Of a DNA stretch of 64,000 nucleotides, positions 6,996 to 27,992 are shown one piece after another. The position numbers and the translations under genes were made by a program. Location of the stretch: positions 1-64,000 of the forward strand of contig JAITVY010000070.1 of NCBI GenBank assembly GCA_031285565.1, given 5' to 3'. Source of the DNA: Tannerella sp. (GTDB taxonomy: Bacteria > Bacteroidota > Bacteroidia > Bacteroidales > Tannerellaceae). Each line of letters begins with the position of its first letter. Position 1 is the first letter of the stretch. Below the pieces are notes generated by a model. It ran no database searches, was not told where the DNA came from, and saw nothing but the letters and a program-made list of their open reading frames with translations.

Positions 6996-7016
6996 CCCTA
7001 AACCCCTGAAAGTGTT

Positions 7017-8090
7017 TTGAAAAAAGATGCAAAAATATACGTAGCCGGACATCGGGGTCTTGTAGGCTCGGCTATCTGGAACTGTCTCAAAGAAAAAAAG
7101 TATACAAATATAATCGGACGGACTCATCACGAACTCGATTTAATGGATCCGATTGCTGTAAAACAATTCTTTGACGAAGAACAACCGGAATATGTTTTTC
7201 TGGCAGCTGCCCATGTCGGCGGTATCATGGCTAATAATATTTATCGCGCCGATTTTATTTACCGGAATCTGCAGATCCAACAAAACGTTATTGGTGAAAG
7301 CTTCAGACATTCTGTTAAAAAGCTTTTGTTTCTGGGAAGCACCTGTATATATCCGCGCGATGCAGAACAACCGATGAAAGAAGAATCATTGCTGACCGGT
7401 CCCCTTGAATATACAAATGAACCCTATGCAATTGCTAAAATAGCCGGACTTAAAATGTGTGAAAGCTTCAATCTGCAATACGGAACAAATTATATTGCAG
7501 TGATGCCGACTAATTTATACGGTCCTAATGATAATTTTGATCTGGAACGGAGTCACGTATTACCGGCCATGATCCGGAAGATCCATTTAGGGAAATGTTT
7601 ATTCAACAATGATCTGGAAACTATACGGAAAGACCTGAACAAACGTCCGGTAGAAGGGATAAACGGAAATAGTACAAATGATGAGATACTGCAGATTTTA
7701 GAAAAATATGGTATAACCGGTCAACATGTTACGTTATGGGGTACCGGTAGTCCGATGCGTGAATTTCTGTGGAGTGAAGAAATGGCTGATGCCTGCATTT
7801 TCATAATGGAGAATGTCAATTTTAATGATTTGAAAGGCGAAACAAAAGAGATCCGGAACTGCCATATCAACATAGGAACCGGAAAAGATATATCCATCAA
7901 GAACTTAGCTGCACATATTGTCAACACCATCGGATATAAAGGAAATTTGTTTTTTGATCATTCCAAACCGGATGGCACCATGAAAAAACTGACAGATGTG
8001 ACAAAACTGCAGGCATTAGGCTGGAAGCACCGGATTGATATTGAAGAAGGAATCGAAAAAATATATGACTGGTACATCCATGAACTCTAA
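7017..8090 (+). CDS. fcl: GDP-L-fucose synthase
   Basis: 357 residues starting at TTG (7017); no ATG or GTG gives the conserved N-terminus. It is an NADPH-dependent epimerase/reductase that makes GDP-L-fucose from the Gmd product. The Rossmann motif is G-H-R-G-L-V-G-S-A-I-W, followed by G-S-T-C-I-Y-P and Y-A-I-A-K (catalytic Tyr and Lys). About 20-30 residues (L-E-T-I-R-K-D-L-N-K-R region) form an insertion, seen in longer Bacteroidota versions. It directly follows gmd and its end overlaps the AraC gene. Confidence 0.95.
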   Translation: MKKDAKIYVAGHRGLVGSAIWNCLKEKKYTNIIGRTHHELDLMDPIAVKQFFDEEQPEYVFLAAAHVGGIMANNIYRADFIYRNLQIQQNVIGESFRHSVKKLLFLGSTCIYPRDAEQPMKEESLLTGPLEYTNEPYAIAKIAGLKMCESFNLQYGTNYIAVMPTNLYGPNDNFDLERSHVLPAMIRKIHLGKCLFNNDLETIRKDLNKRPVEGINGNSTNDEILQILEKYGITGQHVTLWGTGSPMREFLWSEEMADACIFIMENVNFNDLKGETKEIRNCHINIGTGKDISIKNLAAHIVNTIGYKGNLFFDHSKPDGTMKKLTDVTKLQALGWKHRIDIEEGIEKIYDWYIHEL

Positions 8091-8967
8091 TACCGCCATA
8101 CAGGAAGTTACACCTTTATCTGAGAAAGATTGTTTCTACATTGCAGATCGATGTAAAACGGAGTTCACGTATCCGATACACTGTCATAAAGAATACGAGT
8201 TGAATTATGTTTCGAAGGCAAAAGGAGTCAAAAGAATTGTAGGAGATTCGATTGAAGTTATCGGAGATTATGATTTAGTGCTGATAACCAGTGAGAATCT
8301 GGAACATGTTTGGGAACAGCATGAATGCACTTCCAAGCAAATACGTGAAATAACAATCCAGTTTTCTCCAGATATGTTTAGCTCCTCTTTATGGGATAAA
8401 AACCAGTTTTCATCCATCCGTAAGATGCTGGAACAGGCTCAAAAAGGACTATCCTTTCCGATGCCTGCTATCCTGAATGTATATCATCAATTAGACACTT
8501 TAGCTTCCGAAAAACAAGGATTCTATTCCGTAATAAAGTTTATGTCAATCCTGTACGAATTATCATTGTTTATTGATGAAGCTAAAACACTATCGAGTTC
8601 TTCTTTTGCAAAAATCAAAGTGCAATCGGACAGCCGGCGTGTACAAAAAATTCAAACATATATAGACAAACACTACAAAGAAGATTTGCGTCTGGAACAA
8701 CTGGCTGACATGGTTGGCATGACACCGGTTGCGTTCAGTCGTTTTTTCAAACTTCGTACCGGTAAGCGTTTATCTGATTATATTATCGACATCCGGTTAG
8801 GACATGCTATCCGGATGTTAGTAGACTCAACAATGTCAATCTACGAAATCTGTTATGAAAACGGTTTCAACAATATTTCCAACTTCAACCGGCTTTTTAA
8901 AAAGAAGAAAGAATGTTCACCCAAAGAATTCAGGGAGAATTATCACAAAAAGAAAGTGATCGTATAA
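8080..8967 (+). CDS. AraC family transcriptional regulator
   Basis: 295 residues from ATG 8080; ATG 8065 (300 residues) is also possible. Both overlap the fcl stop at 8088-8090. The N-terminal half looks like the cupin-type sensing domain (Y-P-I-H-C-H-K-E-Y-E-L-N-Y). The C-terminal 100 residues form the double helix-turn-helix of AraC/XylS (L-A-D-M-V-G-M-T-P-V-A-F-S-R-F-F-K, then I-C-Y-E-N-G-F-N-N-I-S-N-F-N-R-L-F-K). The ligand is unknown. It sits at the native side of the island junction: its stop is followed in frame by a foreign glycosidase tail, so its very C-terminus may have been altered by that joining. Confidence 0.88.
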   Translation: MNSNTAIQEVTPLSEKDCFYIADRCKTEFTYPIHCHKEYELNYVSKAKGVKRIVGDSIEVIGDYDLVLITSENLEHVWEQHECTSKQIREITIQFSPDMFSSSLWDKNQFSSIRKMLEQAQKGLSFPMPAILNVYHQLDTLASEKQGFYSVIKFMSILYELSLFIDEAKTLSSSSFAKIKVQSDSRRVQKIQTYIDKHYKEDLRLEQLADMVGMTPVAFSRFFKLRTGKRLSDYIIDIRLGHAIRMLVDSTMSIYEICYENGFNNISNFNRLFKKKKECSPKEFRENYHKKKVIV

Positions 8968-9135: not shown

Positions 9136-10599
9136 TTACTCCTTTATTTTTACCGGAACACGCTTATTTGAAACGATCTCCAGCTCTACTTTTCGTTGCT
9201 CCAGCTTCACCGGTTCGCTCGTGAAATCAGGAACGTTGTACGAATAGACCGAACAGTCATAATATTCCCATGGGTTTTCCTGGGGCAGCAGGAAAGGTTT
9301 GCTAACTACACCATTCTCGTCCATACTTGCCAGGTAAAGACGGGTATAGAGCCCATCTCCCCGGCGGCTGGTGAACACAAACCAACGGGAGTTACTACTC
9401 CAGTTATGGAAACTCTCCGTGTCGTCACTGTTCACTTCCGTCATCGGACGCATGGCGCCATCCTGCAGATTCAGCAACCACAAGTCGGCTTCCTTGTGCC
9501 AGATGGAGAAGTTACCGTAATCCGCTAAGGCAAATATGATGTACTTCCCATCGTACGAGGGTCTTGGGAAAGAGATACTTTTTTGCATGGCTGCAGCATT
9601 CACCAGCGTATCCACCCGTTCGCCGAATGTTCCGTCTTCCGGATTAAAATCGATGCTGCACAGACTGTAACGTATTTCCTTGTATTCTGCCGGTATATCC
9701 TTGGCTTCCGCCGCACAGAAATAGAGCTTGCGCCCGTCCGGCGAGAATACGGGAAAAGTCTCGAAAACTTCTTTCTTCTGCAACAAAGGCGAACGTAGCA
9801 GTTCATGCGTTTCGGGCTGGTATACCAGTACATCCGATGCCAGGTCGAGCACCTCCACACGTTCATCCTTCACTGCGTGGAAAGACTGCCGCGTGTTGTT
9901 GACGGAATAAGCGATGTACTTCCCGCCCGGATGCCAATAAGGATACACACAAGCTGAAAGCGTGGAGTCCGTTTTCGTATTCAGCATTTCGCGTTTCCCG
10001 TTGATCTGCATCAGGGTTCCGCCATTCGCTCCACGGATGTGCAGGCTCATGTAGTCCGGGTTGGTCTTGTTGAAAGCATGGCAATTCAGGCACATGCCGG
10101 GAATCATGGTATTCTCCAGCAAAGGACGCTCATTGAAAGTAGAAAGGTCACGTTCATAAATTCCCATCTTGCTATAGACCTCATATCCCGGAGCTATTTT
10201 ACGATATACTACCCCATAATCAATAGGATACGAACTGACGTGCATGGTGAAAGAACGGTACTGTTTCCACTTGCCCTCTGCCTGGATGCATACTGTAAAC
10301 CGGAGGCTGTCTCCCTTGTTGGCTTCCAAAAGCTCCTTCCATTTCTTCGGCGGGAATGATACTGTTTTATCATTGACATGTATCTCTCCGGACTTTCCTC
10401 CGGTCACTGTTACGTCCACACGTTCGTACGCTCCACCGGTACAGTTGAAGTTCATGGGGGCAATAGTAGCAGGAATGGTCACACCGATATAGTCGGGGTA
10501 AATATCCGGCCATGCATCCACTTTCTCCGGATCAGTCACCGGATTACTACAAGCAGCAAGCCACCACGCAGTTAGTATATAAATAGCTATTTTTTTCAT
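9136..10599 (-). CDS. PD40 beta-propeller lipoprotein with CxxCH motif (copy A)
   Basis: 487 residues. Lipoprotein signal with L-A-A-C (Cys17). Residues 30-130 are a beta-rich domain. A single C-L-N-C-H (Cys170, Cys173, His174) matches a c-type haem site. From about residue 215 there are TolB/PD40-like propeller blades (W-H-P-G-G-K-Y-I-A-Y, F-S-P-D-G-R-K-L-Y-F, R-P-S-Y-D-G-K-Y-I-I-F). It is a paralogue of the gene at 12376-13845, with the same domain order. The DUF6057 gene upstream ends 1 base before its ATG, so the two are translationally close. Function unknown; haem binding is possible but unproven. Confidence 0.75.
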   Translation of the reverse strand: MKKIAIYILTAWWLAACSNPVTDPEKVDAWPDIYPDYIGVTIPATIAPMNFNCTGGAYERVDVTVTGGKSGEIHVNDKTVSFPPKKWKELLEANKGDSLRFTVCIQAEGKWKQYRSFTMHVSSYPIDYGVVYRKIAPGYEVYSKMGIYERDLSTFNERPLLENTMIPGMCLNCHAFNKTNPDYMSLHIRGANGGTLMQINGKREMLNTKTDSTLSACVYPYWHPGGKYIAYSVNNTRQSFHAVKDERVEVLDLASDVLVYQPETHELLRSPLLQKKEVFETFPVFSPDGRKLYFCAAEAKDIPAEYKEIRYSLCSIDFNPEDGTFGERVDTLVNAAAMQKSISFPRPSYDGKYIIFALADYGNFSIWHKEADLWLLNLQDGAMRPMTEVNSDDTESFHNWSSNSRWFVFTSRRGDGLYTRLYLASMDENGVVSKPFLLPQENPWEYYDCSVYSYNVPDFTSEPVKLEQRKVELEIVSNKRVPVKIKE

Positions 10600-10600
10600 C

Positions 10601-12379
10601 TTACTCTTTTAATAATAAATAGTTCCAGTACGTATTGCCGAAACGCGTCTGCAATAGCTGACGATTATTGGGCTGTGAAATATAGATCCGTGCAAAGTCA
10701 GTTACATTCTGCATCACCTGGGGCGAAATGCTCCAGGGCATCCCTTGGAAATTGCTGTGCGATTGTGTCCACACATACACCAATACTTCCTGATAACTGC
10801 GGGGAATATGGTCGTAGCCGGCATGCTTGCCCAACGGATAGTATCTCATAAAACGTTCCACATCGCGCTGTAACAAGACGTATGCCAGCATATACTCAAA
10901 GGCCATCCGGTTCCGGTAATTGTGTTCGTACAGCAAACCCAGCATCATATCTACTTCCGTGTTGCTGAACAGGAAATCTTCCGTAAACCGTATCTGCCTC
11001 AGCCAGCCCCATTCTTTATGAGCATTGATTTTATCTTCGTTGTACAGATAGGTCATGGTATTCTCTGCCCAGTCCTTGTAAAAGATGGTCTTCTGCAATG
11101 CCCGCAGGTATTTGGCTGCGACTTCGTACTGCCCGTTAATCAGGTTGGTTTCTGCCAGACGCTTGAAGCAGCGTCCGCTTTTGCGGTAATTCGGTATCGA
11201 CTCCATCGCTTCGAAAGTGAAACGCTGTGCCGTATTGACCATTCCCAAATGATAAAACGCCTCACTGGTAGGTAGTGGCGAGGTGAAGTCACGATGAAAT
11301 TCCGGCAACAGTCCCTCTGTTCCATTCTGGTAAAACTCGAACATACGGTCGCCCAGTTGTCCGGTCTTTCCCAAGGCCAGATTCAGACAGGTCACATCGA
11401 AAGGCGAGCTTGGCGACTTCTTTTCCGCCTTTTTTATGACCTCCTGCCATTGTTTGTTGCGTACCAGCCGGTCATAGTCCATTGCCTCTTCCTTATCCAT
11501 GTCACAACCGGCAGCAACAAAGTAATAGCCAAACAAAGCCACAGGTACCGTCAACAAAGTCCCATAAAGGATCTGCTTCTTCTTTAAACCGGGGAGAGCA
11601 GCCATTATAAAAGGAAGAACAACCAGCAACACGGCAAGCACTATCTCTATCCACAGTATAGGAATAGGGAAGCGGTAATATCCAATGCCTCCCATCAACC
11701 GGTACAGGGGATACTGCACCCACATGCTTGCCAGCAACGGACAGGCGACTCCCCACAGTGCGACACCGCAGAATGCTCCCGCACTGCCCAGGAAATTCCT
11801 GCTTTGGAGACCCGACCGGAACTCGCGTATCATCACCCAGCCCATGAAAATAAAGTGGGCCGCACCTGCTGTCCAATAGAGCAACGGAAGGATAATCAGG
11901 ATATAAGTGGCACGTTCCCACTTTCCTTTCAAGCCGGTATACGCGCAAGAGGCAGCGAGCGTGAGCAACAAGGCCACTACCACTGACAGCATGGCATTTT
12001 CATCGCCCATGAAATGCCACAGGACTATAACAGGCAGGAAGCTCAACGGATAATACACATCGGCTGCGCCCTGCTCCTTCGCCAGTTTCCAAACCAGACG
12101 TTGCAACAGCGCATACAGTAAAGCCAGTATACAGGCACCTGCCCACACATAGTAATAAAACTGCGTCAGGTATTCAGCAATATAATCGGCCAACCCGCCG
12201 GGAACTGCTATTCGTTCCCACCAGTAACCGGCATCGAACAAGAATAGCTGGTATTGTTCCTGATAGGAAAGGTGAGCCGGGTATGCACTTCCCCAAAAGA
12301 GAAGCACCACCGCTCCGAAAAGAATTGTCAACCCTATCTTCCAGGTCTTTTTCAGAAATACATTCATGCACACAATCAT
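10601..12379 (-). CDS. DUF6057 family membrane protein (copy A)
   Basis: 592 residues. The N-terminal half has about eight to nine hydrophobic helices (between residues 12 and 295), with the family-typical Y-Q-E-Q-Y-Q-L-F-L-F-D...Y-L-T-Q-F-Y-Y-Y region near the first periplasmic loop. The C-terminal half is soluble and helical, TPR-like (L-A-E-T-N-L-I-N-G-Q-Y-E-V-A-A-K-Y-L). The start at 12379 forms an ATGA overlap with the stop of the preceding PD40 gene, indicating coupling; ATG 12367 is an alternative. No known activity. Pairing with a PD40 gene occurs twice here. Confidence 0.75.
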   Translation of the reverse strand: MIVCMNVFLKKTWKIGLTILFGAVVLLFWGSAYPAHLSYQEQYQLFLFDAGYWWERIAVPGGLADYIAEYLTQFYYYVWAGACILALLYALLQRLVWKLAKEQGAADVYYPLSFLPVIVLWHFMGDENAMLSVVVALLLTLAASCAYTGLKGKWERATYILIILPLLYWTAGAAHFIFMGWVMIREFRSGLQSRNFLGSAGAFCGVALWGVACPLLASMWVQYPLYRLMGGIGYYRFPIPILWIEIVLAVLLVVLPFIMAALPGLKKKQILYGTLLTVPVALFGYYFVAAGCDMDKEEAMDYDRLVRNKQWQEVIKKAEKKSPSSPFDVTCLNLALGKTGQLGDRMFEFYQNGTEGLLPEFHRDFTSPLPTSEAFYHLGMVNTAQRFTFEAMESIPNYRKSGRCFKRLAETNLINGQYEVAAKYLRALQKTIFYKDWAENTMTYLYNEDKINAHKEWGWLRQIRFTEDFLFSNTEVDMMLGLLYEHNYRNRMAFEYMLAYVLLQRDVERFMRYYPLGKHAGYDHIPRSYQEVLVYVWTQSHSNFQGMPWSISPQVMQNVTDFARIYISQPNNRQLLQTRFGNTYWNYLLLKE

Positions 12380-13845
12380 TTAAAAGGTTCCGCCTTCAAT
12401 TGCCGGTATATCCGCTCGATGGTAGCTGCATCAAAGGGAACGGGAGTTTCCGACAAATCGGGTATATTATAAGATTTCAATGTCAAATCGTCTTTCTCCG
12501 GGTCCGACTGTGGCAGGACGAAAGGCTTATGCGCCTTTCCACCGGCATCTAAGTAGGCAAAATAGACCCGTCCGTACTGTCCATCGCCCCGCTTGCTGGC
12601 AAAGGCAAACCAATGGCTGCCGGACGACCAGCTGTGATACGTCTCCGAACGGTTGGAATTCACTGCCGACAGGGAATCGATGGCTCCCGTTTGCAAATCC
12701 ATCAGTTGCAGTTCCGTTTCGCGGTGCCAGATGGGGAATGTCCCATAATCGGCTACGGTATAGAGCAGGTAACGTCCGTCCGGTGAGGCTTTCGGATGGC
12801 AGACGGATCCACCCTGCAAGCGGGCATTCCAAAGCGTGTCTACCCGGTCGCCCCACGCACCTTGCCCGGCATCGAATGCAATGCGGCACAGCGAATATCG
12901 GAGCTGGTGTATGCTGTCCGGCAATGCAACTAAGGGAGCAGCGCAGTAATACACCCATTTGCCATCGGCAGAAAAAACAGGAAATGTTTCCAGTGCGGTG
13001 CTGTCTGCCGTTAGTGGGGAAAAGATCATCCGGTTCTCGTCAAAGTCGGCAACAACCAGATCGGAAGCCGTGTCATACACTTCCAGGCGGCGATTGCTTT
13101 CAGCATGGAACATCGGGATTACTATGTTGTCCGAGAATACACCGTATCGTCCTCCGGGGTGGAAACCGCCATAAGCGGCAACGGATATCATCCGCTCATT
13201 CTTCAACGCCAGTTTGCGAAGCTTACCATCGCGATTCAAGATGGTTCCTCCGCCCTCGCCACGCAGATGGAACATCGAGAGCGTACCACTATTTCCTCCA
13301 TGTATATGGCAGTTCATACATTTGCCGTCTGTCCGGCTATTGTCTGCCAGGACGCGCTCCTCGAAGTTCTCTATACATCGTTCGCGTATCTGCAGGGCAT
13401 TCCATACTTCGTAACCGGGTTCTATCAGGCGGTAGCTGACGTAAGCATCCAGGCTGTCGGACACTACTTGCCAGGTAAAGGGAGGATATTGCAACCATTG
13501 CCCACCGGAACGGGCAGTAACGGTCACTTTCAGCGTATGCCCCTTCTCCGTGTTCAGCAAGGCACGCCAGGCTTTCAACGGAAATATCACCTTAGAGCCG
13601 CGTGTATGTATTTGCAAGCTATCCGATACTCCTTTTACACGGACACTTACCGCATCTACCTCTTCATTTCGTAAGAGGAAGTTCAGGGGAGCTATATTGC
13701 AAGGGATGGTCACGTCCTGATATTCCGGATAAATAGCCAACGCCTCATCCGCAGACTGTACGGATTCAGGATGGGGTGTACAAGCTTGCTGGCTGTACAG
13801 TAGTCCGATCAGAAAAACGATGTACCAAACTCTTTTATTCTTCAT
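12376..13845 (-). CDS. PD40 beta-propeller protein with CxxCH motif (copy B)
   Basis: 489 residues, paralogue of copy A with the same order: signal sequence ending Q-Q-A-C (Cys22, a weak lipobox), a beta domain, one C-M-N-C-H (Cys176, Cys179, His180), then propeller blades (F-H-P-G-G-R-Y-G-V-F, F-S-A-D-G-K-W-V-Y-Y, K-A-S-P-D-G-R-Y-L-L). It overlaps the next DUF6057 gene by ATGA. The GC-rich sequence produces long antisense frames, including one of 319 codons at 12480-13439, which I regard as spurious. Role unknown; an exported, possibly haem-bearing sensor or scaffold is a guess. Confidence 0.75.
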   Translation of the reverse strand: MKNKRVWYIVFLIGLLYSQQACTPHPESVQSADEALAIYPEYQDVTIPCNIAPLNFLLRNEEVDAVSVRVKGVSDSLQIHTRGSKVIFPLKAWRALLNTEKGHTLKVTVTARSGGQWLQYPPFTWQVVSDSLDAYVSYRLIEPGYEVWNALQIRERCIENFEERVLADNSRTDGKCMNCHIHGGNSGTLSMFHLRGEGGGTILNRDGKLRKLALKNERMISVAAYGGFHPGGRYGVFSDNIVIPMFHAESNRRLEVYDTASDLVVADFDENRMIFSPLTADSTALETFPVFSADGKWVYYCAAPLVALPDSIHQLRYSLCRIAFDAGQGAWGDRVDTLWNARLQGGSVCHPKASPDGRYLLYTVADYGTFPIWHRETELQLMDLQTGAIDSLSAVNSNRSETYHSWSSGSHWFAFASKRGDGQYGRVYFAYLDAGGKAHKPFVLPQSDPEKDDLTLKSYNIPDLSETPVPFDAATIERIYRQLKAEPFK

Positions 13846-13900
13846 ATTTTAATAATTAATCGCTCCCCATTGCCCCAGCGAGGAACTACTTTTATCTTGC

Positions 13901-15352
13901 TTATTGCTTTTCTTTCATCGTAGCATAATGAAAGTAAAACCAGTAAGTCTTTCCATAGCTAGCTTGCAAAGGTGTGCCATTGCCACCGTTTGCTTCGTAC
14001 AACCGGGTATATTCACTGAAATCCTCCAATGTCCGGGGCGATATATTCCACTTCCTTACTTCGTCCGGCGAAGCTTTCTTTCCGGCAAGATAGATAAGCA
14101 ATCCCTCGGCATACAGTCCGGAAGGTGTTTTGCTTGCAGCAAAAGCCTGATAGTCTTCGGCAAAAGCTCCTATATCTTTATTCAGCAAATCAAAGCAGAG
14201 AAGATAATCGAGTGCCAGTGTATTAGCCGGGTTACTACGCAACAGATGGCGAAGTGAAAGCGGTACATTTTCAGCGGAGCGCAACGTGTCCATTGCGGGT
14301 AGCAACTGTCGCTTCCGTTCCAGCCATTGACTTACTTCAGGCGCTTGTTTACCCGGAATACGGCGTTCCGCCCAGTCACGGTAACACATCGTCTTTTGCA
14401 GGAGGCGAAGATATTTCATAGCCGCAGCATCGTCACCATTAATCAGATTGATTTCCGCCATGCGTTTAATAGCCCTTGTCCCGGTGTGATGCGGAGAAAA
14501 GATCATTCCCAGTATGGTGGCATGCTCCGCCATCGTCATATCTCCCAGGGCAAACCAAACTTCATTGGCAGCATAAATGGTGAGGTATGTAGAACTGGGT
14601 GCTACGGGCAGAAACAGCCCTTGCGAAGCCGGTTGGTAATAATCCATCAGCTTGTCGGGCAACTGGTGTTGCTGTGCATTCAGCAAGTTATAATAATAGG
14701 TAGCAAACGGTGAACGGTATTCACCCTCAACCAACAGCTTCGAAGCCTTTTCCCAACGGCCGAAATACATTTCCGAGTCTAACGCCAGAAGATGTTCCAG
14801 TTCCCAATTGGGTGTGTTGTATACTTTTGATGACCAATCGCCATAGCCGAACAACCAGTAACCGGACAACGCCGCCAATGCACTTATCGGCAAGCCCGAT
14901 TTCCACGAATGGCGTATACAACTACGGCACAGCAGCAGGACTCCACCGATACCAATCAAAGCGATGGTACCGGAAAGCGGATAAGTCAGTCCACACTGTC
15001 TTCCGGCTTCCCATACTACTGCCAGTACCATAGGAATCCAGGCCCAACGGCCGATATACGGAACCAGCAGCCGGAATACCACCACTCCCCAAAGCAGCAA
15101 CACGGCCGCTATGATAGCCGGACCACCCCCTACATAATAGAAGAATTGCGTAAGAAGATCTCCCGACAGACGGGCCAGTGCCGCCGGATGTTTCAGGTAT
15201 TCGGTCAGCGTCTCGGAAGTAAACAAGAAGAGCTGTGTTTGCTCCCGATGGAATAGATGATAGGGCAGCATCCGGAAAAAAAAGAAAAACAGCACCAGTG
15301 TGCCGGCTCCTGCTACCGCCCAGTTTGTGTATTTTTTATTGAAGGCTTTCAT
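13901..15352 (-). CDS. DUF6057 family membrane protein (copy B)
   Basis: 483 residues, shorter than copy A because it has fewer N-terminal membrane helices (about five between residues 10 and 180). It keeps the Y-H-L-F-H-R-E-Q-T-Q-L-F-L-F...L-L-T-Q-F-F-Y-Y-V region. The C-terminal half aligns by eye with copy A (M-A-E-I-N-L-I-N-G-D-D-A-A-A-M-K-Y-L-R-L-L-Q-K-T in pieces). Its start overlaps the DUF4369 gene by 17 bases, and PD40 copy B follows after 55 bases, so the whole stretch 15938 to 9136 reads as one operon. Function unknown. Confidence 0.72.
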   Translation of the reverse strand: MKAFNKKYTNWAVAGAGTLVLFFFFFRMLPYHLFHREQTQLFLFTSETLTEYLKHPAALARLSGDLLTQFFYYVGGGPAIIAAVLLLWGVVVFRLLVPYIGRWAWIPMVLAVVWEAGRQCGLTYPLSGTIALIGIGGVLLLCRSCIRHSWKSGLPISALAALSGYWLFGYGDWSSKVYNTPNWELEHLLALDSEMYFGRWEKASKLLVEGEYRSPFATYYYNLLNAQQHQLPDKLMDYYQPASQGLFLPVAPSSTYLTIYAANEVWFALGDMTMAEHATILGMIFSPHHTGTRAIKRMAEINLINGDDAAAMKYLRLLQKTMCYRDWAERRIPGKQAPEVSQWLERKRQLLPAMDTLRSAENVPLSLRHLLRSNPANTLALDYLLCFDLLNKDIGAFAEDYQAFAASKTPSGLYAEGLLIYLAGKKASPDEVRKWNISPRTLEDFSEYTRLYEANGGNGTPLQASYGKTYWFYFHYATMKEKQ

Positions 15353-15938
15353 CCAACTGTTTGCGTTGTTCTTCCGTCAGGGAGCCGCGCAGCATTTTCT
15401 GCATAAACATTCCCAACGTATTGTCTCCTTGTTCTTTCAGGAAGAAGTAATTCATTTCCTGTTCCTGCACCTTTAAGCTGTCCTGCCTCTGTGCCAGGTA
15501 TAAAGAATCTTCTCCGGTGGCTGTCTGTAATCCCTGTCGGATAAAGCGGTAGCTCACCTGCTTCTTCTCCCGTCCCTCTTTCCACTGTTGCAGCGCATCG
15601 TTCTGCGGAGTACTTGTTACCGAGCCAATGGAATCAGTCGTAACCTGTATGATGCCCGGTTCCGTTACCACCAATAGTTCCTGTATGTAAGGGCGCAAAG
15701 CATGGCGCAGGCGCAATACCCTCATCTCTTCTCCTTGCCCGGAGAAGGAGAAAGAAGCATTGCTTATCTTTACAGAGTCTACCCGTCCCTGAGCATTCTC
15801 CATCGGTACGAGGTATATCCATTCACCGTCATACTTTACCGATGGCAATGTCCCTTCGATCACATAACCCTGTCCCCGGTTTCCGCAACTTCCCCCGAGG
15901 AGGCATGCTATACACAAAAGCAAGAAGTGTGTTTTCAT
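15336..15938 (-). CDS. DUF4369-domain lipoprotein
   Basis: 200 residues. Lipoprotein signal with L-G-G-S-C (Cys19). The body resembles the DUF4369 domain found at the N-terminus of TlpA-like thiol-disulfide proteins (E-G-T-L-P-S...G-E-W-I-Y-L-V-P, then V-D-S-V-K-I-S-N-A-S-F-S-F-S-G). Here there is no thioredoxin domain, so it is a stand-alone version; the C-terminal 80 residues are charged and helical. It is the first gene of the DUF6057/PD40 operon and lies 12 bases after the Rid fragment. Its partner role is unknown. Confidence 0.65.
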   Translation of the reverse strand: MKTHFLLLCIACLLGGSCGNRGQGYVIEGTLPSVKYDGEWIYLVPMENAQGRVDSVKISNASFSFSGQGEEMRVLRLRHALRPYIQELLVVTEPGIIQVTTDSIGSVTSTPQNDALQQWKEGREKKQVSYRFIRQGLQTATGEDSLYLAQRQDSLKVQEQEMNYFFLKEQGDNTLGMFMQKMLRGSLTEEQRKQLDESLQ

Positions 15939-15950
15939 GGCACAACCGGA

Positions 15951-16172
15951 TTAAAGTTTCTTTACTTCCATACATTCCATTTCGATCAGCCACCCCGGAC
16001 GGCAAACGGGAGCCAGCGTAATCACTCCCGGTGTATCGGAAAAACATTCATCGAACATTTTCTTCACTACAGCATGATTGGAGTCCACGTTCTGTACAAA
16101 GGTCCATCTGCGCAGACAGTTGGCAGCTACTTCTGCCCTGCCGGAAGGATAAATGTATGATGTGTATTTCAT
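15951..16172 (-). pseudogene. Truncated Rid (YjgF) family gene
   Basis: 73 residues with an ATG at 16172 and a stop shortly upstream in frame. R-R-W-T-F-V-Q-N-V-D and G-V-I-T-L-A-P-V-C-R-P-G-W-L-I-E-M-E-C match the strand-and-helix pattern of Rid-family proteins, but a complete Rid domain is about 125 residues and the N-terminal half is missing. It is likely a decayed or internally deleted gene; it may still be translated. The 250 bases up to the next gene hold only one short hairpin (GAAAGGCG...CGCCTTTC, 16256-16283). Confidence 0.5.
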
Positions 16173-16423: not shown

Positions 16424-17257
16424 TTATTGTTTCTTGAAGTTCCAGAACCATGCAGTACCCCAATCACCGGCTCCCGGTTCGGGTGCACAGAGGCGGAGGT
16501 GTTCACCATCGGCTTTCAGAATATGATATTCATACTGATTGCCGCCTGCATTGGGCTGTATACCCAGCAACGGGAAGGTGCCGCTGAAGTTCATGGTACC
16601 TATGTCCCAACCGGCCTTCACCACGTCTTCATTCACTTTCACAGAACCCTTGTCGCCACGGCTCATCTCTACACCGGTCAGACTCATCTTCATCCAACCG
16701 TCTTTACCATCGTTGGGTAAGCTCTTATCGTTGGCTTGTTCGTCAATGCCATCTATTTGAACAACCCACCAACCGGGTCCTGTGTTTTCTAAGTAACCGC
16801 CATTACCCCATACACCATCATCGGCTGTGTCGTCCCACACCCAGGTGTTAGTCGTAAATCCACCATTACCATCGCCGAAGATGTTATTAAAGATTTCAGG
16901 CAGATCGGTAAACTCACTTACATCGATGCTCTTCGTACCGGACTTCGTTGTGGTACCGTCCCAATTCATCGTAACTACATAGAGATTGAGTGTACGTGCA
17001 GGAGGTACAGCCTGGTAAGTAGGCAGAGTACCCATGGCTATGCATTCATCACTGCTCGCATCATATACCTTTATGTAACGATTGGGAGACGTTATAAATG
17101 TCAAGTTGTTATTCCCTGTGCTCTTGGCAGAGATGGTAAACCCACTGGTTAGTTCTTCAGCGGTTATATTGCTGTCCATTCCTATCTCGTCCACGATGGG
17201 ATCGCAGGCGACAAAAAACAAAGACAACAACGGAGCTGCAAATAATATCTTTTTCAT
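16424..17257 (-). CDS. Surface lipoprotein of a SusCD locus (SusE/F-like)
   Basis: 277 residues from ATG 17257; the frame is open to 17281 but the lipoprotein signal M-K-K-I-L-F...F-F-V-A-C-D-P fits 17257. It is beta-rich, with W- and G-rich C-terminal sequence (W-G-N-G-G-Y, G-P-G-W-W-V-V-Q-I-D-G) that could form glycan-binding surfaces. It lies 34 bases after SusD in the same direction, the place of SusE/SusF or surface glycan-binding proteins. No single family is certain from sequence alone. Predicted to be on the cell surface, aiding SusCD in ligand capture. Confidence 0.65.
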   Translation of the reverse strand: MKKILFAAPLLSLFFVACDPIVDEIGMDSNITAEELTSGFTISAKSTGNNNLTFITSPNRYIKVYDASSDECIAMGTLPTYQAVPPARTLNLYVVTMNWDGTTTKSGTKSIDVSEFTDLPEIFNNIFGDGNGGFTTNTWVWDDTADDGVWGNGGYLENTGPGWWVVQIDGIDEQANDKSLPNDGKDGWMKMSLTGVEMSRGDKGSVKVNEDVVKAGWDIGTMNFSGTFPLLGIQPNAGGNQYEYHILKADGEHLRLCAPEPGAGDWGTAWFWNFKKQ

Positions 17258-17291
17258 ACTATAAATATTAATATTAAACATTCAGTCGGGC

Positions 17292-19082
17292 TTATTTCCA
17301 ACCGCTATATTCGCTGCCGGCACCCGTCCATCCTTCGTTCTGTACTACACTACCGATGCTAACCTGGCTTTCAGGCATTTTCTGGAAACCGGCTGTAGCA
17401 TTGTAACGAGCCACATAACCACCATTCTGGGCTGTATTCTTATCGACCTGACCACAATAATAAACCGGCTGGTTTTCTTGCTTGGCCAGTGCGGCGGCGG
17501 CAATGTGCCAGCGACGGATATCATTCCAACGAATGCCCTCGAGAGCCAATTCCCAACGACGCTCGTTCTGCAAAGCTTCGAGTGAGTAAGAACCAATACC
17601 TTCGAGTCCGGCACGTGCACGTACGCGGTTAATACCTGCCACATCTCCTTTCAGCTCACTTTGCATCAGCAGTACATCGGCAAAACGAATCAATACAAGG
17701 TCGTGAATGTTGTTAAGCTGCATATTGTTAGCTCCCTGAGGCCAACCCGAAGCGCCATACATCAGGTTCTCAAAGCAGCACACGTATGGGTTATCGGATA
17801 CCGGAATTAAGCTTCCTTGCGATCCATCGTTCACAGCAGAAATCGGCGACCATTTCTTGGCATAATAGTCGGTTTCCTGTACGAAGTCGGCCCAACCGCC
17901 GTATGTATAAGTAGAACTTTGCGTCCAATCCTCGATGGTAGCTTCCCGGCGAATGTCTTTACCATCACGGTCGGCGCTTTTCCAGTCGTTAACCAGGTTA
18001 GGAGCCACAGGACCTGCACCCCAACCTTGTCCGAAGGGGAAGGTGTTTTCGTAAGACTGACCGCCGCGTACGCCCATATGAAGAGCAATGCCGTTGCCAT
18101 AGCCAATGGTGGTTGCCCAATCGGCCAACTTATTGAACTTGATAGCAAACATAGATTCAGGATTGACGGCATTGTCATCTTCTGCCCACTTCAAGCCTTT
18201 ATCTGCAGTATATTCGTAATCCTTCACTGTGTATTTATTGGTATAAGCCCACAGATTGCGGAAGTCGTCTACAAGTGTGTAACCGGAGTTGTTCACGCAA
18301 TCGTCCACGTAGGCAATAATGTTTTCTTTCGTCAGTGTCGTGCCATCGGGCAACTCCACTGAAGAGAGCGGATTGTAAGCGGTACTGGTCAAAGCTGCCA
18401 GATCGGTTCCGTTACAATACATACCGGTGTAGAACAAGAAGATACGAGCCAGCAAAGCTTCTGCCGTATACTTATCTACGTGTCCATCCGTCTTGCGCAC
18501 AGCCGGCATCATTTCAATGGCATCGCGCAAATCCTGCAACATCTGTCCGTAAAGCACTGCCACGTCACCTTGTGTCACCAGTTCGCCCGAAGGAGCATTC
18601 ATCAAAGGCACATTGCCATACATGCTGGCCAGATCGAAGTGATAGAAAGCACGCAAAAAGAGAGCTTCGCCTAAGAATTGCGCTTTCGAATCATCACTCA
18701 TGGTTGTATTGGGCAAAGCACTGATCAGCGTATTGGCACAGTTGATGCCTTTATAACGTGTTACCCAGAAGTTGTTGGTCATATCTGAATTGTAATTCAG
18801 CATCAAGTCCATGGCTTGCATCAACTTATCGTTGGTCCCACCACCGCCAAAAGCATCGTCACTGGCCAATTGGGCATAGTACAAGAATGATTCTTGCGGA
18901 TACCCATGTACCTCATTCAAATTTTCATAGATGCCAGCCAAAGCTGCAATACCATCAGCTTCAGATGCTGGGAAGTTTTCTGTGGAAAGCTCACCCATAT
19001 TCTCTACATTGTCGATGTCGCAAGAGGCAACCCCAAGTGCCAAACAACCCGAAGCGAATAAATATATTATTTTTTTCATCAT
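17292..19082 (-). CDS. SusD/RagB family surface lipoprotein
   Basis: 596 residues. Lipobox L-G-V-A-S-C-D near Cys21. SusD-type TPR helices are seen (F-L-R-A-F-Y-H-F-D-L-A-S-M-Y-G-N-V-P, residues 135-160) and the C-terminal family signature (N-E-R-R-W-E-L-A-L-E-G-I-R-W-N-D-I-R-R). It caps the SusC barrel and captures ligand. Start M1 at 19082 or M2 at 19079. It follows SusC by 11 bases. The substrate cannot be deduced from the sequence. Confidence 0.95.
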   Translation of the reverse strand: MMKKIIYLFASGCLALGVASCDIDNVENMGELSTENFPASEADGIAALAGIYENLNEVHGYPQESFLYYAQLASDDAFGGGGTNDKLMQAMDLMLNYNSDMTNNFWVTRYKGINCANTLISALPNTTMSDDSKAQFLGEALFLRAFYHFDLASMYGNVPLMNAPSGELVTQGDVAVLYGQMLQDLRDAIEMMPAVRKTDGHVDKYTAEALLARIFLFYTGMYCNGTDLAALTSTAYNPLSSVELPDGTTLTKENIIAYVDDCVNNSGYTLVDDFRNLWAYTNKYTVKDYEYTADKGLKWAEDDNAVNPESMFAIKFNKLADWATTIGYGNGIALHMGVRGGQSYENTFPFGQGWGAGPVAPNLVNDWKSADRDGKDIRREATIEDWTQSSTYTYGGWADFVQETDYYAKKWSPISAVNDGSQGSLIPVSDNPYVCCFENLMYGASGWPQGANNMQLNNIHDLVLIRFADVLLMQSELKGDVAGINRVRARAGLEGIGSYSLEALQNERRWELALEGIRWNDIRRWHIAAAALAKQENQPVYYCGQVDKNTAQNGGYVARYNATAGFQKMPESQVSIGSVVQNEGWTGAGSEYSGWK

Positions 19083-19093
19083 GTAATCAGTTT

Positions 19094-22000
19094 TTAGAAT
19101 TTAACATTAACACCAATCATATAGGTACGGGGAGTGGGGTAGTTACCTACATCAACACCTGTCAGCCAAGGTTCTTCATCGTCGATAGCACGTCCGTTTT
19201 CAGGATCCATTCCCTTATAACCGGTAATAGTGAAGAGATTCTGTGCTGCTGCATACATCCGGAGTTGTGGGAACGGACAGTTCTTCCAGATACGCTTAAA
19301 GTCGTAGCCTATAGTCAGGTTCTGTAAACGGAAATAGTCGGCATTTTCAACATAGATGTCGGAAATAGACTGCCAGTTTACACCTTCGTTCATACGGGCC
19401 AGCAAAGGATATTTGTTGGATGTACCTTCGCCATTCCAATACTGATACACTTCAGTAGTATAGTTCTCTTGTTCACCATCGGTGAATTTACGATAAGAGC
19501 GCGCCACCTGTTGTCCCAGTGCAGCGAAGCCTGTTACGGAAAGGTCGAATCCTTTGTAACCGACACTAAGGCTAAGTCCCATCGTTACATCGGGATGCGG
19601 ATTACCCAGGTCGGTCTTGTCATCAGCATCGATTATTCCGTCACCATTCACATCGACAAACTTCAAGTCACCGGGTTTCAGCGTTTTGCCTTGCAGTGAA
19701 TTGGCTGCATTGCCGTCTTTCAGTGTCGCTACGTAATCAGCCAGGTCAGCCTGGTTCTGGATAACGCCGTCAGTTTTGTAACCCCAGAAATAACCAATGG
19801 GGTATCCTTCTTCGAAGCGTGCCATATAACCGGTTCCCTGAGACAGGTTGTCGAGACCACCGTTGTTGTACTTACGTGAACTGTTTACTTTGGTCACTTC
19901 GTTCTGATTGTAAGCGATGTTCCAGTTAATGCCGTAAGTAAAGTCTTTATTTACCTGATCGTTCCAGTTAAGAGCAAGCTCAATACCTCGGTTACGAACT
20001 GTACCTGCGTTTTTCAGCTGTTCCGAGAATCCGGTAGTAGGAGTTACAGGAACCATAAGCAACAGGTCTTTAGTGGTCTTTTGATACCAATCGAAGGTAA
20101 GACCCAGACGGCTGCCCAGGAAACGGGTATCAAGTCCTACGTTAATCTGTTCAGAGGTTTCCCAGGTAATGTCGTTGTTCGCTAAGCGGGAAGGAACAGC
20201 TCCCGAAGTATAACCGTCCTTATCGTTACCGAACGAATAGTTACTTTTAGTGGTGTAACCGAAGGTAGCCTGATAAGCAAAGTTGTCAACCGCGTTCTTG
20301 TTACCGTTTTGTCCCCAACCGGCGCGAATCTTCAGGAAGTCGAGCCAATTTTGCGTGCTGGCCATGAACTTTTCGTTCGAAGCTACCCAACCTGCAGAGA
20401 ATGAAGGGAAGTATCCCCAACGCTTGCCCGGTGCGAAGATAGAAGAACCATCGGCACGAATAATGGCGCTGAGCATGTAAGTTTCATTGAAGTTGTAGTT
20501 CAAACGACCGAAGTAAGACATGTTGCGAGTGTCGCCATAAGGTTTGCCCGATACGGTGGCCTTGCCCGTATTGTCCTTCATGAACTCCATATAAGCATGG
20601 GCCAAATCGCCGAACACCGAATTAGAGGCTGTAGCCTTCAGTTCAAACCCATTGTTAGGGCGCGATTCGCCATACTCGGTACCTGCCAGGATATCGAAAT
20701 TGTGTCCACCCAGGTTCAGTTGATAATTCAGTGTATTGGTGGTGCTCCATCCCCAGCCTTGTGACATATTATTACTAGCGCGGTCAATAGTACGGCTATC
20801 GCCCTGGTCATTCAATTTGTAAACGGGAAGGTAATTGCGCCATGACGAGGAACTCTGGTTGTAGTTCAACTGACCACGATAGATCAAGCCTTTGATGGGT
20901 TGTACTTCCAACCAACCGCTCACATTAAATCCAAAGTTTACGCTCTTATTGTTGGCACTCTGGCTGTTCATCATCGAAGCAATGGGGTTAGTCGTATAAG
21001 AGTTATAGTTAAACCAACCTTCTGTACCGGAATTTCTCAAATCGTCATAGCCGAAATACTCACCGTCTTTATTGTAAAGAGGAACCAGGGGGTTGGCACG
21101 CAACATGTTCGATATCATATTGCTATATTGATTTCCGTTGTCAAGACCCTGTTTCTGAGAATGCTGATAGTAAAGATTCTGCCCTACTTTCACCACATCA
21201 AGTCCGGCATCGTTACGGTAAATCACATGTTCGGCGTTCATACGCAAAGTGAAACGACGATAGTCCGACTTTGCCATGTTGCCAAAGATACCATCCTGAT
21301 ATTGATAGCCCAAACCAGAAGAAAATTTAGTGCGGTCAGTACCCGAAGTAACGTTCAACGAGTGGCTGGAAGTCATTGCGTTTTTGTTGCGGATAAGATC
21401 TAACCAGTTTGAACCTTTGTTCGATCCGTTCTGATAAGCAGCCAACAGGTCCGAATCTATATATTTAGACCAATCCCGGGCATCCACACCGCTGTTGAAA
21501 CGAACCAGGTCTTGTACTTCCATATATTGCTTTGCAGTCAGCATATCGGGCATCTTATACACATTCTGCCAACCGATATTGCCATCATAGCTTATCTGAA
21601 TCTTGCCTTCTTTACCTTGCTTGGTTGTAACCAGAATTACACCATTCGCGGCAGCAGAACCATAAATGGCACACGAAGCAGCATCTTTCAGCACATCGAT
21701 ACGCTCAATGTCGGCAGGATTGATGTTGTTGATATCACCGCCTACACCATCAATAATGTAAAGAGGCTTGGTGTCACTATTAGTACCGGCACCACGGATA
21801 GTTACCTTAAAACCATCACCCGGCTGACCGGAAACAGCCTGAATGTTTACACCCGGAGATTGGCTTTGCAAGGCACCTAATACCTGGGTTGTGTTAAGTT
21901 TGGCAATGTCATCGCCTTTTACTTCAACGGTAGCCCCTGTAACAAGCTTCTTTTTCTGAACTCCATAACCTATTACTACTACTTCATCCAGAGATTGCGT

Positions 22001-22345
22001 ATCATCCTGTAAAGATACATTGTACGCTGTTGTTCCTGCAACAACCCGAATCGTTTGGGGCAGGTAGCCGATATACGAAAACTCAACATCGGACCCGGCG
22101 GGAACAGTTAATACATATTCACCGTCAAAATTGGTAATCGTCCCATTGCCCGTGCCTTTCTGGATTACATTTACACCGATGAGAACTTCTCCATCAGCAG
22201 CAGAACTGATAACCCCTTTTATCGTGACATTGGATTGCGCCATTGCCGGCAAACAACCCATTATCAGAAAGGCTGTAATCATCATTGCTTGTGCGACTTT
22301 ACCTGGTAAGCCGCTCAAGAATACCTTTTTGCATCTTTTTCTCAT
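19094..22345 (-). CDS. SusC/RagA family TonB-dependent transporter
   Basis: 1083 residues from ATG 22345, which gives a proper signal peptide ending near A-M-A-Q. Domains: signal peptide, carboxypeptidase-like domain (about 40-120; G-V-I-S-S-A-A-D-G-E-V-L-I-G-V), plug with the SusC signature (P-L-Y-I-I-D-G-V, and I-E-R-I-D-V-L-K-D-A-A-S), then a 22-strand beta-barrel ending in F. It imports a ligand delivered by SusD using TonB energy. No STN domain, so it is not an anti-sigma signalling type. A -7 box lies at 22409-22416. Confidence 0.95.
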   Translation of the reverse strand: MRKRCKKVFLSGLPGKVAQAMMITAFLIMGCLPAMAQSNVTIKGVISSAADGEVLIGVNVIQKGTGNGTITNFDGEYVLTVPAGSDVEFSYIGYLPQTIRVVAGTTAYNVSLQDDTQSLDEVVVIGYGVQKKKLVTGATVEVKGDDIAKLNTTQVLGALQSQSPGVNIQAVSGQPGDGFKVTIRGAGTNSDTKPLYIIDGVGGDINNINPADIERIDVLKDAASCAIYGSAAANGVILVTTKQGKEGKIQISYDGNIGWQNVYKMPDMLTAKQYMEVQDLVRFNSGVDARDWSKYIDSDLLAAYQNGSNKGSNWLDLIRNKNAMTSSHSLNVTSGTDRTKFSSGLGYQYQDGIFGNMAKSDYRRFTLRMNAEHVIYRNDAGLDVVKVGQNLYYQHSQKQGLDNGNQYSNMISNMLRANPLVPLYNKDGEYFGYDDLRNSGTEGWFNYNSYTTNPIASMMNSQSANNKSVNFGFNVSGWLEVQPIKGLIYRGQLNYNQSSSSWRNYLPVYKLNDQGDSRTIDRASNNMSQGWGWSTTNTLNYQLNLGGHNFDILAGTEYGESRPNNGFELKATASNSVFGDLAHAYMEFMKDNTGKATVSGKPYGDTRNMSYFGRLNYNFNETYMLSAIIRADGSSIFAPGKRWGYFPSFSAGWVASNEKFMASTQNWLDFLKIRAGWGQNGNKNAVDNFAYQATFGYTTKSNYSFGNDKDGYTSGAVPSRLANNDITWETSEQINVGLDTRFLGSRLGLTFDWYQKTTKDLLLMVPVTPTTGFSEQLKNAGTVRNRGIELALNWNDQVNKDFTYGINWNIAYNQNEVTKVNSSRKYNNGGLDNLSQGTGYMARFEEGYPIGYFWGYKTDGVIQNQADLADYVATLKDGNAANSLQGKTLKPGDLKFVDVNGDGIIDADDKTDLGNPHPDVTMGLSLSVGYKGFDLSVTGFAALGQQVARSYRKFTDGEQENYTTEVYQYWNGEGTSNKYPLLARMNEGVNWQSISDIYVENADYFRLQNLTIGYDFKRIWKNCPFPQLRMYAAAQNLFTITGYKGMDPENGRAIDDEEPWLTGVDVGNYPTPRTYMIGVNVKF

Positions 22346-22408
22346 AAAAGACTTGATTTTAAAATTGATAAATATAATAGTGTTCACTCATGATAAATTT
22401 GATATATG

Positions 22409-22818: not shown

Positions 22819-24090
22819 TCACTTCAACTGCTCCGAATATGTTTTTATGATTTTAATAGTCGTATCCGTATCAAAAACAGAATTAAGTCCTTGTTCCTCC
22901 TGTGAAGGATCGCCTACATAATCATCCCATGGATGCCAGAATTCATGTGCCGGACGTCCGAATCCACCCCATGCCCAAAAGTTACAACCGGCCAGTACAT
23001 CTTTACTTTTCGAAGCATTCACTATTTGCATAAACACATTCGCATAATACCGGTCACGTGCTGTAGTAGGATCATCCAATGTGTATTTGTGGTTATCGCG
23101 CGGAAAACCAAATTCTTCCATAATAATCGGCTTCTTTAATTTCCGGGCAATAGCCATATGCTGTTGCATATATTCATTCGTCTTTTCTACACCTACGTCT
23201 ACTGAACCGGGAATGTCGTTGACATCTATCCAGCTCCAGTTCTTAGGCCAGATATGCATCGTCAGATAATCAACATTCGGATCGGCATGCATTTGCTCAA
23301 ACAAATCCATATCCATCTCACAGCCCCACAGTCCTTCTGAACCAATCGAGACCAGATGGTTTGCATCCAACTGACGCATCATGGCAGTCGTTTCCTTTAC
23401 CCAGGCTGCCATCAACGGTTTGGCCTCTTCACTAAAAGCGCGCGGCTCATTCCCAACCTGCCATGACATGATAGCCGGATCATCTGTATATTTCTTATTC
23501 GTATATCTGTTTGTGCGTGACATAACATGTTTCACATGCTCCAGAAACATCGTATGGCATTCATTACAACCGGCATACTTAGCCACATGTCCCAGAAATA
23601 CAGGCCAATCATGTACACCCTTTTCAGGAACACTGCCTTTACCGGCCCATTCGAGATATTGCCCGTATCCCCCACTCCATTCCCAACTATTATTGAGATA
23701 AAGCACTGCATACATATCACGTTTGCTCATTTCGGCAAGCAAATAATCAAGGCCATCAAAAATAGTATCATTATAAACTCCCGGCGATTGCTGAAGTGTA
23801 GGCATCACTTTTACGGCCTGACCGGCTACACCATCTGCCCCAACCAGAATACGGAGATTATTGATTCCGTTTGCTTTCATAAAATCAAGCTCTTTATGTA
23901 AACGCTCACGGTTACCCCCCTGCCCTTCCGAACCAAGAATAGCACCATACCAGAAATTAGTACCGATAAAATAATAAGGCTTTTTGCCAATAAATAACTG
24001 CCCGTCTTTTTGGGTTACAAATTGCGCTTTCACTGTATTTAAAGCACACATATTAAATACGATGGTAATAAATAAGATTATTTTTTTCAT
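22819..24090 (-). CDS. GH5 subfamily 7-type endo-beta-mannanase
   Basis: 423 residues with a signal peptide (about 22 residues, ending K-A-Q). Family marks: G-T-N-F-W-Y-G near residue 45, acid/base in S-W-Q-V-G-N-E-P-R (Glu215), and nucleophile in I-I-M-E-E-F-G-F (Glu326 by alignment to E-F-G). GH5_7 enzymes hydrolyse internal beta-1,4-mannosyl bonds of mannan, glucomannan and galactomannan. It is the last gene of the operon starting with GH130 at 29180. No lipobox is evident, so it is probably periplasmic or secreted. Subfamily assignment is by motif and context. Confidence 0.88.
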   Translation of the reverse strand: MKKIILFITIVFNMCALNTVKAQFVTQKDGQLFIGKKPYYFIGTNFWYGAILGSEGQGGNRERLHKELDFMKANGINNLRILVGADGVAGQAVKVMPTLQQSPGVYNDTIFDGLDYLLAEMSKRDMYAVLYLNNSWEWSGGYGQYLEWAGKGSVPEKGVHDWPVFLGHVAKYAGCNECHTMFLEHVKHVMSRTNRYTNKKYTDDPAIMSWQVGNEPRAFSEEAKPLMAAWVKETTAMMRQLDANHLVSIGSEGLWGCEMDMDLFEQMHADPNVDYLTMHIWPKNWSWIDVNDIPGSVDVGVEKTNEYMQQHMAIARKLKKPIIMEEFGFPRDNHKYTLDDPTTARDRYYANVFMQIVNASKSKDVLAGCNFWAWGGFGRPAHEFWHPWDDYVGDPSQEEQGLNSVFDTDTTIKIIKTYSEQLK

Positions 24091-24174
24091 GGAATATTTA
24101 TTTTTTTATATCAAATGAGTTATTAGTTGTAGCACTATTTTTCTTCTTGACTACTTAATTCATAATTCATGCCT

Positions 24175-24190
24175 CATAATTTATAATTCT
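24175..24190 (+). repeat. CATAATT-type intergenic repeat
   Basis: CATAATTTATAATTCT in the GH5-GH26 spacer; a close copy lies at 25319-25334 in the GH26-epimerase spacer and degenerate copies at 27969-27991. Confidence 0.45.
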
Positions 24191-25305: not shown

Positions 25306-25318
25306 ACATACTGTACTT

Positions 25319-25334
25319 CATAATTTATAACTCA
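25319..25334 (+). repeat. CATAATT-type intergenic repeat, second copy
   Basis: CATAATTTATAACTCA, one of several near-identical AT-rich units in the GH26-epimerase spacer (further units to 25348). Confidence 0.45.
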
Positions 25335-27879: not shown

Positions 27880-27949
27880 GGCATATATTGAATTGAAAGT
27901 GGAAAATTGAAAATTGAAAGTTCAAGATTCCATTAATTGCCCCTAATTG

Positions 27950-27966
27950 GCTATGGCCGATCTTCG
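27950..27966 (+). repeat. CTATRGCCGAT intergenic motif, copy 2
   Basis: GCTATGGCCGATCTTCG in the spacer between the symporter and GH130 genes. Confidence 0.55.
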
Positions 27967-27992
27967 ATTCATAATTAATACTTCATAATTAT

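Follow-up and report, generated by a model that had tools for sequence, protein, structure and literature searches.

The first 64,000 nucleotides of contig JAITVY010000070.1 of a Tannerella genome (assembly GCA_031285565.1; this whole stretch is called the window below) carry two consecutive gene pairs, each consisting of a DUF6057 membrane protein gene followed by a gene for a predicted lipoprotein beta-propeller of the PD40 family with a CxNCH motif. This tandem DUF6057-PD40 arrangement is old, is kept widely across Bacteroidales and, as a gene module, is undescribed: the literature library searched gave nothing for PD40 with CXXCH, nor for TolB-like combined with Bacteroides and CXXCH, and no paper on DUF6057. 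Judging from sequence, there is about an even chance that the pair forms an inner-membrane and periplasmic mono-haem redox module, with PD40 being, at the same roughly balanced estimate, a c-type protein with one haem that DUF6057 keeps at the membrane. We favour this reading because CxNCH is conserved, because a propeller histidine (H404) is lost jointly with it, because the haem-attachment protein CcsBA is present and because a linked chorismatase-like gene is shared with haem-c loci. The genome is 5.0 Mb in 118 contigs and 83% complete, the window being part of the contig numbered C118. The module is laid out as follows.

9136..10599, minus strand: PD40b, predicted lipoprotein beta-propeller with CLNCH (Pfam PD40)
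9406..9408, minus strand: H398 of PD40b, aligned with H404 of PD40a, candidate second axial ligand
10078..10092, minus strand: CLNCH site of PD40b, residues 170-174 (CxNCH in 85/85 full-length b copies)
10601..12379, minus strand: DUF6057b, about nine membrane helices and a C-terminal tetratricopeptide repeat (TPR)-like domain, periplasmic in our reading (Pfam, AlphaFold, Foldseek, hydropathy)
12376..13845, minus strand: PD40a, predicted lipoprotein beta-propeller with CMNCH (Pfam, alignment, AlphaFold)
12634..12636, minus strand: H404 of PD40a, candidate second axial ligand (alignment)
13306..13320, minus strand: CMNCH site of PD40a, residues 176-180 (homologue conservation)
13901..15352, minus strand: DUF6057a, shorter paralogue with part of the membrane region missing (Pfam)
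15336..15938, minus strand: DUF4369 protein (Pfam), a lipoprotein by eye

An initial annotation had described two DUF6057-PD40 units close-packed behind a DUF4369 gene, and all five genes are confirmed on the minus strand with the spacings that it gave: PD40a and DUF6057b share an ATGA overlap, 1 base separates DUF6057b from PD40b and 55 bases lie between DUF6057a and PD40a. From the coordinates, DUF4369 and DUF6057a overlap by 17 bases, which that annotation had not listed. The family assignments are above the Pfam cut-offs, with 669.3 and 473.9 bits for the two DUF6057 proteins (PF19529, cut-off 29.8), 45 bits for PD40b and 34.9 for PD40a together with a propeller-like model (PF07676, cut-off 20.9) and 46 bits for DUF4369 (cut-off 25). 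DUF6057a matches PF19529 in two stretches, about 97 profile positions of the membrane part being absent. The PD40 proteins are predicted to be lipoproteins exported across the inner membrane, as a lipobox-like cysteine is kept in 99% of 166 aligned rows and the model has an N-terminal helix; this refines the export proposed earlier.

As had been noticed, the two PD40 copies in the window have diverged and each retains a single CxxCH, CMNCH in PD40a and CLNCH in PD40b; they are 41% identical. A scan of contigs recovered 292 stretches encoding a PD40a relative, and the best 80 loci were kept as a first set; one of the six search patterns held the motif, and the a copies are therefore biased toward it, while the b copies of the same loci were not selected by pattern. 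This set contains 169 PD40 frames, of which all 164 full-length ones (79 a, 85 b) show CxNCH, as do three of the five frames cut by a contig end. What is kept is more exact than CxxCH, being C-x-N-C-H in all 167 motif-showing frames. A second set, obtained from profile searches and enlarged by further stretches chosen mostly from the copies with the lowest scores, comprises 96 distinct genes above 150 bits and has six distinct sequences in common with the first; L175 and L176, which both have CGNCH, and a fragment of 102 residues from L235 fell below 150 bits and were left out. CxNCH is present in 93 of these 96 genes, including one split by a stop (L249, whose two frames are halves of a single broken gene), and is missing from three full-length genes (L229, L252 and L253). 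Loss of the motif from most homologues, which the initial annotation had named as an outcome that would speak against its proposal, is thus the opposite of what both sets contain.

The alignment of 93 PD40 sequences (A1), in which a and b copies are mutually 33-41% identical, has C176, N178, C179, H180, R139, R156, R195, H404, W412 and R419 as invariant positions. H404 is absent from the three CxNCH-less genes of the second set and present in 87 of its 92 full CxNCH copies (Fisher p 4e-4, not corrected for descent), a pattern consistent with H404 either being the second axial ligand or belonging to a metal site shared with the motif. The two remote proteins at L175:1282-3009 and L176:436-2697 align along most of the propeller, with CGNCH on CxNCH and a histidine on H404; the L176 propeller is fused to a C-terminal TPR tail and L175 lies beside a chorismatase-like gene. 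The CxNCH-less L229 gene (5603-7147, genome G030) belongs to a divergent PD40/DUF6057 pair that also lacks H404.

The two genes of the unit are rarely apart. DUF6057 ends at most 400 bases upstream of PD40 in 159 of the 169 first-set frames, four more lying at contig edges, and among the six scored as non-adjacent two are over-long open reading frame calls and four have one gene in between, in each case the chorismatase-like gene. The concern that the genes might seldom be neighbours elsewhere is therefore not borne out. The AlphaFold model of DUF6057b (predicted local distance difference test, pLDDT, 96.4) combines a membrane region with a region of helical repeats; its best PDB match in Foldseek is a designed TPR protein (E-value 0.045), and the best 50 rows are mostly TPR or other repeat proteins. 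From hydropathy and the charges of the loops we read nine membrane helices, an N-terminus inside and the TPR-like domain outside. PD40a is modelled with similar confidence (pLDDT 95.0) as a mostly beta protein with loose Foldseek matches to propellers. Sequence searches of the PDB with single proteins and with profiles gave no informative relative of either family, the best results for PD40 being weak propeller matches.

A quick maximum-likelihood tree of the 93 PD40 sequences, rooted at the midpoint and labelled a or b by best BLAST match to the window copies, splits the two groups at one branch (Shimodaira-Hasegawa-like approximate likelihood ratio test, 100). Both groups include Bacteroidaceae, Prevotellaceae, Tannerellaceae, Marinilabiliaceae, Prolixibacteraceae and Rikenellaceae, and the duplication therefore looks old, with the CxNCH site apparently retained in both copies since.

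Machinery for haem attachment is encoded in nearly all genomes with the module. An absence of cytochrome c maturation genes had been given as a further possible objection; the Tannerella genome has three ResB-containing loci, two with fused CcsBA and one NrfHA-CcsB-CcsA cluster, and fused CcsBA in Bacteroides is already known (PMC6299221). We compared genomes in a near set (at least 90% complete and at most 5% contaminated) and in a sample of 199 genomes from across the order (97% complete or better, with the Tannerella genome admitted despite its 83%), the latter with 27 PD40-family genomes under 18 family labels after G124 and G182, with partial, remote matches, had been dropped. ResB was found in 27/27 PD40 genomes of the near set against 28/36 without PD40, and in 26/27 module genomes of the order sample against 118/172 others; the incomplete near-set genomes G008 and G045, without ResB, show a piece of CcsA. 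NrfA scores over its cut-off in 18 of 46 module genomes tested, so that the haem lyase in the others must serve other clients.

A new finding is that a chorismatase-like gene is associated with the module. Of the 80 loci, 21 have a relative of FkbO/Hyg5 close to the module, at several positions: between DUF6057a and PD40a, ahead of DUF4369, immediately ahead of DUF6057a (in Prevotellaceae) or after PD40b; in two loci (L043 and L044) it is on the opposite strand. Genome-wide, it occurs in 26/27 module genomes of the order sample against 16/172 others (p 2e-20, uncorrected), and in 26/27 against 1/36 in the near set (4/36 if three weak partial matches are counted). The near-set module genome that lacks it is G030, 99% complete, whose single PD40 copy is the one without CxNCH and H404. 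In the window, only a remnant (15951-16172) matches our profile A3, at positions 327-366 (E-value 3e-12), and an intact copy lies elsewhere in the genome (contig C109). The best PDB relatives of the protein are 5ag3/5a3k, which we take to be Hyg5, and FkbO (4bps among the FkbO/Hyg5 structures compared). C338, E345 and E347 are invariant in 20 chorismatase-like sequences, and the cysteine aligns with a cysteine of 5ag3 and an alanine of FkbO; the Hyg5 cysteine and C-terminal glutamate are presumably catalytic. The N-terminal domain PF21168 exceeds its cut-off in one of three proteins (L068, 47.8 against 27 bits, not L040 or L216). Hyg5-type enzymes yield 3-hydroxybenzoate (PMC7170507).

The same gene recurs in other haem-c surroundings. 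Of 42 order-sample carriers, at least 14 have it no more than about 8 kb from a ResB match (coordinates read by us), and in several loci it stands beside DHOR di-haem, NPCBM/HZS_alpha and propeller di-haem proteins. Titles and abstract openings returned by a literature search contained no report of a link between chorismatase and cytochrome c. In nine loci (L274, L275, L278, L280, L281, L282, L287, L288 and L290) the gene directly adjoins a CcsBA-type gene, and four of them (L274, L275, L280 and L287) also have a small protein with one CxxCH nearby, which suggests that the gene has a role in haem-c systems outside the module too. Another locus (L230:5499-9494) encodes, near CcsBA and the chorismatase-like gene, a protein of 1331 residues with NPCBM, hydrazine-synthase alpha middle and FGE-sulfatase domains and two CxxCH motifs.

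The sequences themselves show the gene order, the conservation of CxNCH, the tie between H404 loss and CxNCH loss, and the co-occurrence and adjacency of the genes; the mechanism that we infer from them concerns haem binding, docking, the direction of electron flow and any role of an aromatic product. CcsBA would attach one covalent c-type haem to the CxNCH of the PD40 lipoprotein; His180 would be one of the axial ligands of this haem, and the other would likely be His404, conserved in the propeller. DUF6057 would be the membrane partner, the propeller docking on its periplasmic TPR-like domain. The unit might then carry electrons between a compound imported by the linked SusCD transporter and either the membrane or a small aromatic carrier, and the chorismatase-like enzyme, encoded in the operon or elsewhere in the genome, may supply an aromatic acid for this and other haem-c systems.

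Several observations weigh against the mono-haem reading. (i), AlphaFold places residues 177-183 of PD40a in a beta strand of a hairpin; haem-c sites usually lie in a helical turn, and this apo prediction may differ from the haem-bound form. (ii), DUF6057 has no conserved histidine or cysteine for a haem of its own. (iii), five CxNCH copies lack H404, and the three CxNCH-less genes are divergent overall, which weakens the H404 argument; all three nevertheless retain W412, and two retain R195 and R419. (iv), the ResB association is modest, the co-occurrence p-values ignore shared ancestry, and one genome (G226) keeps a CxNCH copy, itself without H404, and has no match to ResB or CcsA. (v), one order-sample module genome (G177) lacks the chorismatase-like gene, and in the listed genomes of the window's genus this gene and the CcsBA genes are on different contigs. 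(vi), the chorismatase-like proteins reach 35-98 bits against the TIGR04444 cut-off of 325 (four proteins tried), and the reaction of the enzyme is therefore only putative. (vii), of 24 module-free genomes selected because ResB matched strongly, 20 likewise lack NrfA, so that other clients exist and PD40 cannot be called the only one; the idea of NrfA as the reason for CcsBA was discarded. The initial proposal of a membrane-plus-surface complex with a haem-like site is partly supported: none of the three results named against it appeared, while its haem stays putative in view of the hairpin and of G226.

Some of these points would suit a different ligand. CxNCH and H404 may bind a metal ion (zinc, iron or copper) rather than haem, PD40 being a metal-dependent enzyme or a metal-stabilised binding propeller; we hold this to be possible, if somewhat unlikely. 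Joint loss of CxNCH and H404 suits any shared ligand site, the motif is modelled in a hairpin, G226 keeps the motif with no haem-lyase match, and thiocyanate dehydrogenase, a propeller enzyme with a copper site, is among the distant fold matches. However, the genes linked elsewhere encode haem-c proteins and CcsBA, ResB accompanies the module in all but one of the order-sample module genomes, and the entire CxxCH is retained, as a haem-c lyase requires.

Compared with known systems, the mono-haem reading brings PD40 close to the c-type cytochromes of System II (CcsBA/ResBC): the protein is exported with a CxxCH, CcsBA is encoded in the same genome and ResB in nearly all module genomes. Unlike in these cytochromes, the site is on a propeller protein, in a modelled hairpin, and no Pfam cytochrome c domain was matched in the PD40 proteins. 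Cytochrome cd1 nitrite reductase (1nir, 1aom), a haem protein built on a beta-propeller, is among the Foldseek matches of PD40, but with TM-scores of only 0.32 and 0.35 of the query and 8-10% identity, and PD40 has no separate cytochrome c domain. The BtuG surface lipoproteins (8ptd, 8ptf) are also propeller lipoproteins matched by Foldseek, at TM-scores of 0.39 and 0.38 of the query; BtuG binds cobalamin as a partner of a TonB-dependent transporter in Bacteroides and has neither haem nor a DUF6057 partner. The linked gene shares with the FkbO/Hyg5 chorismatases (4bps, 5ag3, 5a3k) the profile, the 5ag3 cysteine and the C-terminal glutamate pair, although it lies far under the TIGR04444 cut-off. 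Imelysin-DHOR (EfeB-like) operons house the chorismatase-like gene in some other loci, and in some the gene stands beside CcsBA, whereas we noticed neither an imelysin nor a DHOR gene in the operon of DUF6057 and PD40.

The module closes a longer minus-strand series, transcribed in the order GH130, MFS transporter, epimerase, GH26, GH5, SusC, SusD, SusE-like, chorismatase-like remnant, DUF4369, DUF6057a, PD40a, DUF6057b and PD40b, and its neighbours are the following.

8035..8967, plus strand: AraC-family regulator beyond PD40b, with homologues near the module in 7/80 other loci
15951..16172, minus strand: chorismatase-like gene remnant, 73 in-frame codons with a large internal part gone (profile A3 match)
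16424..17281, minus strand: SusE-like, from its position and relatives at the same place, with no Pfam match
17292..19082, minus strand: SusD (Pfam)
19094..22387, minus strand: SusC TonB-dependent transporter (Pfam)
22819..29180, minus strand: GH5, GH26, epimerase, MFS transporter and GH130, families found, which we take to be a beta-mannan gene set

SusC adjoins SusD on the strand of the module, which lies downstream of the pair as first described, and with the glycan enzymes they form a polysaccharide utilisation locus. By eye, genes for a GDP-mannose dehydratase and a GDP-fucose synthase adjoin the locus on the opposite strand (5916-8090), and a prophage tail with LamG-like, holin-like and lysozyme-like frames (159-2630) ends near a tRNA-Lys gene (2557-2630).

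Mannan does not appear to be the general substrate, since relatives of the window's mannan enzymes lie near only 13 of 80 homologous modules (two or more in nine loci, one in four and none in 67); these counts are lower bounds, as the flanks reached no further than 10 kb and some of the contigs are short. Many loci in which no mannan enzymes are seen still have relatives of SusC and SusD together with the module. This last observation would also agree with a role in iron acquisition, in which SusCD imports an iron chelate, PD40 and DUF6057 reduce or release the iron and the chorismatase-like product is the ligand or reductant. Several loci have the chorismatase-like gene in imelysin-DHOR-porin clusters, and imelysin operons are implicated in iron uptake (PMC3143127). 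We nevertheless regard this role as unlikely, given the two or more mannan enzymes in the window and in nine of the other loci.

The SusCD neighbourhood, and a Foldseek list that holds BtuG and prolyl peptidase propellers, could instead point to an accessory glycan-binding or sensing lipoprotein of the polysaccharide utilisation locus with a structural CxNCH. This is quite improbable: the motif and four arginines are invariant in all 93 rows despite the low identity between a and b copies, and associations with a chorismatase-like gene and with CcsBA would be unexpected. Least probable of all, and very doubtful, is that DUF6057 is a GT-C-like membrane transferase that moves a sugar or an aromatic acyl group, PD40 serving as its acceptor or chaperone: its predicted layout (helix 1, a first periplasmic loop with short helices and the conserved Glu41/Gln42, further helices and finally a periplasmic domain) is one that we would liken to GT-C, but a profile comparison with PMT_2, the only GT-C family compared directly, gave 1.3% probability against 1.5% for an unrelated-family control pair (13 PMT_2 proteins were used, the other 17 of 30 loci giving no usable frame), none of the 25 Pfam families listed, out of 31 with weak matches to 48 DUF6057 members, bears a GT-C name, and Foldseek, with its mostly repeat-protein rows, gave nothing favouring this fold.

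Extending the mono-haem reading, we tentatively propose, as possible though not probable, a new Bacteroidales redox system in which membrane-docked mono-haem propeller lipoproteins oxidise or reduce what SusCD imports. They would work with an aromatic derived from chorismate, such as a new quinone, cofactor or shuttle, and its source would be the chorismatase-like enzyme that is genetically tied to the cytochrome c synthetase. DUF6057 gains a testable role from this proposal, and the haem-c proteome of module-bearing bacteria is predicted to exceed nitrite reductase and peroxidases. If the proposal is true, fermentative gut anaerobes would have an unrecognised extracytoplasmic electron-transfer step within their nutrient-uptake operons, and a chorismate-derived compound would belong to their haem-c biology.

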